Below, in pieces: positions 19,019 to 20,636 of a stretch of DNA of 64,000 bases. This stretch comes from Crocinitomicaceae bacterium (lineage in GTDB: Bacteria > Bacteroidota > Bacteroidia > Flavobacteriales_D > Crocinitomicaceae): contig JAQVCM010000009.1 of assembly GCA_028689775.1 (NCBI GenBank), positions 62,001 through 126,000 on the forward strand, read 5' to 3'. Numbering within the stretch: the first letter of the stretch is position 1; every line of letters begins with the position of its first letter. Below the pieces are notes generated by a model that ran no database searches, was not told the DNA's origin, and saw nothing but the letters and a program-made list of their open reading frames with translations. The position numbers were made by a program, and so were the translations under genes.

Positions 19019-19176
19019 TTTCTGTTTGCTTTTCGGGATTCGATCGTGATTTGTTACAGCCAGATATTACAAATAAGGCAAGTACCTAAATATAGTAAGG
19101 TACAAATGAGCTAAAACAGAATCCAGTTTCGCATACTCGAAAGTACACTATATTCTGCATTAAAACAATTGTTCTA

Positions 19177-19207
19177 TTTGAAAATTCAAAATAGTTTTTT
19201 ATATTTG
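19177..19207 (+). promoter_or_regulatory. Strong Bacteroidota promoter of the candidate ncRNA
   Basis: TTTG at 19177-19180, a 19-base spacer, and TATATTTG at 19200-19207 form a near-ideal TTTG-N19-TAnnTTTG promoter. Transcription is predicted to start near 19212, about 270 bases before the next start codon. Confidence 0.75.
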
Positions 19208-19211
19208 TGTT

Positions 19212-19439
19212 AGAGGTACGTTCGCACGGCGAATCAGAGACCTATTCCGATTTATCGGGAGCCCATGTAGTATATTTTGGAACTTAACATTTTTGACAAT
19301 CAAGGGAGCCTCAAGAATTCAATGGCGGGCCGCAACAGGAAACTGTAGAGAATTTCTCTCAGCGGATTACAAAACATTCTGGCAATCTTAAGCGTGTTTC
19401 TGAAGTTCTCAGAAATTCAGCTACATGGGTTTATTTTTT
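19212..19439 (+). ncRNA. Candidate structured small RNA, possibly 6S RNA
   Basis: This gap has its own strong promoter and dense complementarity but no convincing reading frame. Helices seen: TTCGC/GCGAA hairpin near the 5' end, inside AGGT/ACCT; CCGAT/ATCGG hairpin (around 19247-19258); a long closing helix AGCCCATGTAG (19260-19270) with CTACATGGGTTT (19421-19432); inside it GGAACTT (19279-19285) with AAGTTCT (19403-19409). At the core is a three-way junction: CCGC/GCGG (19330-19333 with 19362-19365) closing a CAG-GAAA-CTG hairpin and an AGAGA/TCTCT hairpin. A T-rich stretch follows the closing helix. A long rod with an internal bulge suits 6S RNA, but the extra 5' hairpins do not clearly fit. 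It lacks the marks of tmRNA, RNase P or SRP RNA. It could also be a leader of the downstream esterase. Confidence 0.55.
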
Positions 19440-19481
19440 ACTTACCTCATCTGCGCTAATCATACTAATTCATTCTACAAC

Positions 19482-20636
19482 ATGAAGTATTACTCCACAC
19501 TTATCACCGCTTTGATCATCTTTGTACAATCAGCATTCGCACAAACAAATACAAGCGTAACGCTGGATGTAAATGGTGTATCTCGAACCTACAAAATTTA
19601 TGTTCCAGCAATTTACTCCAGTGCAAATGCAGTTCCTTTGGTATTCAATTTTCACGGTTATACCTCTACAAACGTTCAGCAAGAAGCGTATGGAAACTTT
19701 AGACCAATAGCGGACACAGCTAATTTTATTGTTGTTCATCCACAAGGTTTAAACATTGGTGGCGGAGCGGGTTGGAATAATTTCGCAGCAGTTTCGGCAA
19801 ATCAAGGAGATTTGAATTTTGTAGAAAAAATGATTACCGAAATCAGCACGCAATATAACATCGATCAAAATCGAATTTATAGTACCGGAATGAGCAACGG
19901 TGGTTTCATGAGCTATGATTTAGCTTGCTTCATGAGCGACCGATTTGCAGCAATCGCTTCTGTTACTGGCGGTATGTCTGCTTTGCATTGGAATGCGTGT
20001 CAGGCAAGTCACCCAACACCGGTGATGCAAATTCACGGAACAGCTGATGCGGTTGTTGCCTATAACGGCGGTGGTATTGGTAGTTTACACGTTGATTCTT
20101 TGGTAAAAAAATGGGTTGATTTCAATAATTGTAATCCAACACCTACTTTCACAGCGATTCCAGATGTCGTTACAAGTGATAATTGTACAGCAGAACATTA
20201 CGTTTATTCCGGTGGAACGCAAGGCGCTACTGTAGAGTTTTTTAAAATAATTGGCGGAGGACACAATTGGGCAGGTGCTCCAATTTCAGTGAACGGAAAT
20301 ACGAACATGGACATCAATGCATCGAAAGAAATCTGGAGATTTTTCAGCAAATACAAATTAAACGATTTGATTTTGAAAACTGGAAACATCGATAATAAGG
20401 AAATCTTTCGGGTGTATCCAAATCCAACTCAAAATCAGGTAACGATCGAACTGGAAAATTCAAGTAACGCGGTTTTCAAATTGTTTGATGCTTCAGGAAG
20501 ATTGATGCAAGAAAACAAGTTGATTACAGGCAACAATGAAATCTCTACGAGTCAGTTGACACCAGGAGTTTTTATGTATACGCTTTCACAAGATCAAGCA
20601 ATTATTCAGACGGGTAAAATCGTAAAAGAAAATTAG
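19482..20636 (+). CDS. Secreted PHB-depolymerase/feruloyl-esterase-like hydrolase with T9SS sorting domain
   Basis: A secreted serine esterase. The signal peptide starts at the ATG at 19482 (ends SAFAQ). The alpha/beta-hydrolase domain opens RTYKIYVPAIY, continues PLVFNFHGYTS, and has the nucleophile motif GMSNGGFMSYDLAC (Ser in G-M-S-N-G), then HGTADAVVAYNGGG and GGGHNWAG with the acid and His. This matches the LpqC / poly(3-hydroxybutyrate) depolymerase / feruloyl esterase family. The last about 75 residues (VYPNPTQNQVTIEL through GKIVKEN) form a type A T9SS sorting domain, so it crosses the outer membrane through type IX secretion. The natural substrate is unknown. Confidence 0.9.
   Translation: MKYYSTLITALIIFVQSAFAQTNTSVTLDVNGVSRTYKIYVPAIYSSANAVPLVFNFHGYTSTNVQQEAYGNFRPIADTANFIVVHPQGLNIGGGAGWNNFAAVSANQGDLNFVEKMITEISTQYNIDQNRIYSTGMSNGGFMSYDLACFMSDRFAAIASVTGGMSALHWNACQASHPTPVMQIHGTADAVVAYNGGGIGSLHVDSLVKKWVDFNNCNPTPTFTAIPDVVTSDNCTAEHYVYSGGTQGATVEFFKIIGGGHNWAGAPISVNGNTNMDINASKEIWRFFSKYKLNDLILKTGNIDNKEIFRVYPNPTQNQVTIELENSSNAVFKLFDASGRLMQENKLITGNNEISTSQLTPGVFMYTLSQDQAIIQTGKIVKEN

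Follow-up and report, generated by a model that had tools for sequence, protein, structure and literature searches.

The window analyzed here is a stretch of 64,000 nucleotides from a Crocinitomicaceae bacterium (contig JAQVCM010000009.1); positions are counted from its first letter, and the features described are on its plus strand unless otherwise stated. At the locus of interest an exact TTTG (the −33 element; 19177–19180) is followed, after a spacer of 19 nt, by the −7 box TATATTTG (TAnnTTTG; 19200–19207), that is, all parts of the promoter named in an initial annotation of this DNA are present; transcription would start near 19212–19215. As that annotation also claimed, the segment that follows has no good reading frame: the longest wholly internal ORFs encode 23–32 aa, and an ORF of 34 aa on the minus strand overlaps the segment. 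The T-rich end that it described is a U-tract (19430–19439) located directly after the closing helix of the structure discussed below; the aligned homologues are U-rich at this position also, and the tract is the predicted 3′ end of the RNA.

Single-sequence folding is moderately better than that of shuffled sequences (z −2.4 for 19209–19440 and −2.6 for 19261–19437), and the pattern TTTG-N19-TAnnTTTG occurs in the window at chance density (7 found, 6.5 expected); because of these two results, our case for an RNA is built on comparison with relatives. The RNA rises above chance because its base pairs covary and because the −7 box has a fixed position in relatives: with at most one mismatch, the box is located 49–61 nt upstream of the rod (vide infra) in 35 of the 39 leaders from the host's family (10.6 expected from shuffles), and it is exact in 17 of the 39 (0.8 in shuffles, maximum 4). 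The −33 TTTG is not kept in most relatives.

The initial annotation guessed that the segment is a divergent 6S RNA, to be sought with the Rfam models for both 6S RNA (RF00013) and the Bacteroidota RNAs. At the gathering thresholds, Rfam has no match in the window. In a sensitive scan of 19130–19500, the Bacteroidota part of the expectation was borne out, with both matches below threshold: the segment 19213–19437 matches Bacteroidales-1 (RF01693, labelled "6S-Bacteroidales suggested"; 35.5 bits, E 1.8e−4, cut-off 60) and 6S-Flavo (RF01685; 30.6 bits, E 0.0095, cut-off 85). The RF01693 alignment is end to end (model positions 1–179) and includes the conserved core UGGCGGGCC...GGAUUAC; in a search of the whole genome this model matches once, at the window RNA. 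The RF00013 part was not borne out, that is, this model finds nothing anywhere in the genome; five control genomes do match. Among relatives, RF01693 matches 29 of 58, weakly, with a score of 61.7 bits in one member of the same order; RF01685, when searched directly in the relatives, found nothing, and its controls were likewise empty.

For the distribution of the RNA we used R1, a covariance model derived from a sequence-based alignment (A1) of 26 homologues in relatives. R1 matches 116 of the 150 genomes of the host's GTDB family, in 21 of its 24 genera, nearly always as a single match of full length; of the 116 genomes with a match, 115 have exactly one. The remaining genome (G078) has two: a second, weaker match (C2:163205–163376; 33.9 bits) is located approximately 2 kb from the main copy (161089–161262) and is possibly a tandem or decaying second 6S RNA. 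One genus of the family (g22) has no R1 match in its listed genomes (G025, G065, G077, G088, G098, G106, and others), which are 2.2–2.9 Mb in size and 99–100% complete; here the 6S RNA is either lost or diverged beyond detection.

Outside of the family, R1 recovers all 57 tested loci with the core motif, nearly all from Bacteroidales and including Bacteroides and Parabacteroides, and it also matches 22 further genomes of the phylum; the core UGGCGGGCC...GGAUUAC is found exactly in Bacteroidales genomes. For most of the R1 loci across the phylum, RF01685 or RF01693 has a match at that position too, in some cases far above the cut-off (up to 113 bits for 6S-Flavo and up to 184 bits for Bacteroidales-1); since R1 matches are named as either Rfam family, the group that includes the window RNA bridges the two. 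RF01685 and RF01693 have no common clan in Rfam 15; they are probably one family, because R1 recovers both the Bacteroidales loci and several 6S-Flavo loci confirmed by Rfam. Two observations were made in passing. The record CATLPG010000035.1 (L065) is titled Saccharospirillaceae and carries a Bacteroidota 6S RNA; the title looks wrong, and the record appears identical to contig C35 of G057, a genome of the host's order. Also, a Flavo-1 RNA (RF01705; L228:2470–2547; 69.5 bits) is located approximately 0.8 kb from a 6S-Flavo-like locus.

The features that characterize the 6S class include a rod with a closing helix, a large central bubble, and an internal arm, and these are found here both by RNAalifold and by counts of compensatory pairs. 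RNAalifold predicts the rod from the sequence-based alignment with no prior structure as input. In the structure that we describe, 88.3% of the alignment cells are paired vs 75.9% when shuffled and 31–54% (maximum 54.1%) when the partners are slid, and double changes, that is, changes on both sides of a pair, are found in 26 of the 38 pairs. The initial annotation had staked its reading on conservation of the helices in relatives; they are conserved and they covary, and this result, together with homology to both Bacteroidota families, supports its guess of a divergent 6S RNA.

The 11-bp closing helix that it proposed, P1, is present (19260–19270 with 19421–19431); 8 of its 10 modelled pairs are double-changed, and 98% of its cells are paired. 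Inside P1 is a second helix, P2, identified by RNAalifold and by the swap test described below, in which the 5′ strand UUUUGGAACUU (19275–19285) pairs with 19403–19408 and 19410–19414; U19409 is bulged from the 3′ strand (19403–19414). The central bubble measures approximately 16 × 13 nt. Its 5′ strand (19286–19301) begins with a near-invariant UUAACA and, with 19275–19285, is the predicted template for a product RNA (pRNA); its 3′ strand (19390–19402) contains a conserved CRUGU motif (both motifs from alignment A1). Above the bubble, the lower internal stem P3 (19302–19305 with 19386–19389) is double-changed in 4 of 4 pairs. The internal arm with its apical three-way junction (19308–19383) has a core that is conserved across Bacteroidota loci (UGGCGGGCC, 19323–19331; GGAUUAC, 19364–19370), and all 7 pairs of its upper stem are double-changed. 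The GNRA-capped hairpin that was claimed for this junction is found as a GAAA hairpin (19335–19346) next to a second hairpin (19348–19360), both on the stem 19330–19333/19362–19365; at least two hairpins occur in the fold of 21 of 33 apical segments.

A pairing of GGAACUU with AAGUUCU had been noted that overlaps, and so competes with, a local UUUCUGA/UCAGAAA hairpin; both helices covary. The local alternative is a 3′-bubble hairpin, GUUUCUGA-AGUUC-UCAGAAAU (19396–19416; 19396–19403 pairs with 19409–19416), that excludes P2. The covariation was measured with a swap test in which the strands belonging to one sequence are set against strands exchanged between relatives; because the shuffling ignores relatedness, control combinations of strands were used. 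With 26 sequences, P2 has z −6.0 and the hairpin z −6.5 (eleven control combinations, −2.8 to +3.0); with 63 homologues, 6S-Flavo and Bacteroidales types among them, z is −13.6 for P2 and −9.0 for the hairpin, in an alignment that was fitted to P2 and hence leans toward P2. By partition-function folding, 49 of the 63 free RNAs have P2 as the dominant form, and P2 flips in silico to the hairpin in 50 of the 63 once the predicted pRNA site is masked, the median hairpin pairing rising from 0.8 to 7.6 bp (0.6 when an apical control site is masked). In some homologues (e.g., L033) folding favors the hairpin over P2 already in the free RNA, and in four homologues from two other families of the order (L018, L028, L035, and L043) the hairpin is found in a shifted register. 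In E. coli 6S RNA, synthesis of the pRNA opens P2, whose 3′ strand then takes part in a 3′-bubble hairpin (PMC8876501). The comparative sequence data and the modelled folds support an alternative pairing of the E. coli type, one that would fit pRNA-driven release.

The initial annotation also likened TATATTTTG to the −7 promoter box and suggested a possible promoter mimic, a suggestion that we reject. The sequence is not an exact TAnnTTTG, and its conserved TTTG pairs in P2, on the presumed template strand for the pRNA. Near-matches to TAnnTTTG do occur at this site in 35 of the 63 homologues, four of them exact; we attribute these to the run of T. As described for other 6S RNAs, a −10-like element is carried by the 3′ strand of the bubble (PMC8876501). 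When this strand was searched for TAnnTTTG in the 63 homologues, the motif was found in 5 vs 8.2 in shuffles, that is, it is not enriched. For these reasons (pairing in P2, location on the template side, and no enrichment in the 3′ bubble strand), we prefer to interpret TATATTTTG as part of P2.

The genome context of the RNA was compared among four congeners. An esterase gene (19482–20636) is located directly downstream of the RNA on the same strand, both in the window and in congener G003, and mutually exclusive helices are typical of riboswitches, so the RNA might be read as a cis-acting leader, that is, a riboswitch or attenuator of the esterase gene with P2 and the hairpin as its regulatory switch. 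However, the adjacent esterase is missing in three of the four congeners (G001, G002, and G004): there the RNA is located next to the 3′ end of a convergent miaE gene, and no esterase intervenes. Outside of the genus, the neighbor genes that we tested were not found, except for one upstream gene in G022; moreover, the U-tract ends the RNA whichever gene comes next, and the RNA matches the 6S families. The RNA is almost certainly not an esterase leader, because three congeners carry it without the esterase; synteny largely refutes this explanation, to which we give almost no credence. As a separate matter, an in-frame ATG upstream of the esterase (19425) would extend its ORF into P1; the likelier start is that at 19482, which opens a signal-peptide-like MKYYSTLITALIIFVQSAFA.

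Between the −7 box and the rod, most members of the host's family have a 5′ domain of two hairpins, A (19214–19243) and B (19245–19260, abutting the rod). Its sequence varies rapidly across the family and its pairing is kept: in the swap test with 39 family members, hairpin A has z −6.2 and hairpin B z −9.6 (controls within 1.9), and in 11 aligned sequences double changes are found in 11 of 15 pairs in the domain as a whole (19213–19260; 7 of 10 in A and 4 of 5 in B). The domain is absent from the representative 6S-Flavo and Bacteroidales loci that were inspected and from a few members of the family. A second covariance model, R2, recognizes it in several leaders outside of the training set. 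Among 40 genomes, all of the strong R2 matches are located in front of a rod, with some help from the seven rod bases contained in R2; matches elsewhere are weak (at most 23 bits), so we reject the possibility that the domain is a dispersed element. In relatives at the level of the order that lack the domain (L018 and L028), the −7 box is 28–29 nt upstream of the rod; the box and the domain shift together, and we therefore argue that the domain is transcribed.

As to its role, the simplest guess is protection or maturation of the 5′ end of the RNA; a precursor that contains the domain and is then trimmed is possible. Absence of the domain from the inspected 6S-Flavo and Bacteroidales loci and from a few family members, as well as its rapidly varying sequence, would also fit a small RNA in its own right, or a processed leader, that is unconnected with the rod, the working 6S RNA then starting near 19261; this explanation deserves consideration and is, in our judgment, rather doubtful, because the domain abuts P1, the −7 box is at the start of the domain, and strong R2 matches are found solely in front of the rod. 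We regard as speculative, and improbable, the proposal that a lineage-specific regulatory module has here been fused to the 6S RNA: the domain, either through controlled processing or by binding a ligand or protein, would set when the rod can seize or release polymerase. If true, this 6S RNA would carry its own sensor.

Also characteristic of the 6S class is one conserved, independently transcribed gene per genome; here, nearly all positive genomes have a single match, the promoter box has its own set position, and the flanking genes vary. Taking the evidence together, we are confident that the locus is the host's single 6S RNA gene, with a predicted independent transcript of approximately 225 nt (probably 19213–19437) that would clamp and release RNA polymerase as follows. 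The rod would imitate an open promoter and occupy the active site of the σA holoenzyme, most likely in stationary phase. Once nucleotides are available again, the polymerase would transcribe a short pRNA, with the 5′ bubble strand and then the 5′ strand of P2 as template; the predicted pRNA is antisense to approximately 19275–19290, starts near UUAAC at the edge of the bubble, and has the sequence 5′-GUUAAGUUCC.... Its synthesis would open P2, the 3′ strand of P2 would snap into the local 3′-bubble hairpin, and the RNA would be ejected as in E. coli. In Bacteroides, 6S RNA and its pRNAs have been detected by dRNA-seq (PMC7366714), and the known RNAs detected in Flavobacterium psychrophilum include a 6S RNA (PMC9723704).

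A homologue with the same rod could instead act like Ms1, which is described as a structural relative of 6S RNA that binds core polymerase (PMC9130861): it would bind the core enzyme or act as a store, and would not be a promoter mimic released by a pRNA. The 3′ bubble strand, with no enrichment for a −7-like element, is compatible with such action; the P2/hairpin switch, however, is conserved, covaries, and fits pRNA-driven release, and the Bacteroides homologue has reported pRNAs (PMC7366714), so we consider Ms1-like action very unlikely and prefer the 6S mechanism.

The window RNA resembles RF00013 in its closing helix, central bubble, and internal arm, and in a 3′-bubble hairpin that competes with a downstream helix, as in E. 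coli (PMC8876501); it differs in sequence motifs, in ending with a U-tract, and in its 5′ domain, and the RF00013 model has no match in sequence and structure in this genome. With RF01685 it shares the aligned core, the bubble strands, and the internal stem, and P2 and the 3′ hairpin can be drawn in Flavo sequences too; however, RF01685 is a short core model that lacks P1 and P2, and the inspected loci lack the 5′ domain. Its likeness to RF01693 includes the full-length alignment, the core UGGCGGGCC...GGAUUAC, and the internal arm, and the Bacteroides members of this family are those with reported pRNAs (PMC7366714); in contrast, the Rfam model is unpaired in the outer third on each side, where we find P1 and P2, the inspected Bacteroidales loci have no 5′ two-hairpin domain, and the window RNA scores below the cut-off.

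The window RNA is, then, a divergent 6S RNA that is sub-threshold for both Rfam families and has a family-specific 5′ domain; because the Rfam cut-offs reject it, standard annotation misses the 6S RNA of the host's family. RF01685 and RF01693 are joined into one homologous group by the intermediate sequences, which also provide P1 and P2, outer helices missing from both Rfam models. Part of this rod architecture may already have been described for Bacteroidota by Wehner et al. in 2014, whose work on the dissemination of 6S RNA reportedly predicted pRNAs in Bacteroidetes. The Bacteroidota sigma factor reads promoters quite different from those of E. coli; the two-sided covariation of the switch is comparative evidence that a release hairpin of the E. 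coli type extends to this phylum. New in comparison with the known systems is the 5′ two-hairpin domain found in most members of the host's family, a defined and testable addition to 6S RNA.
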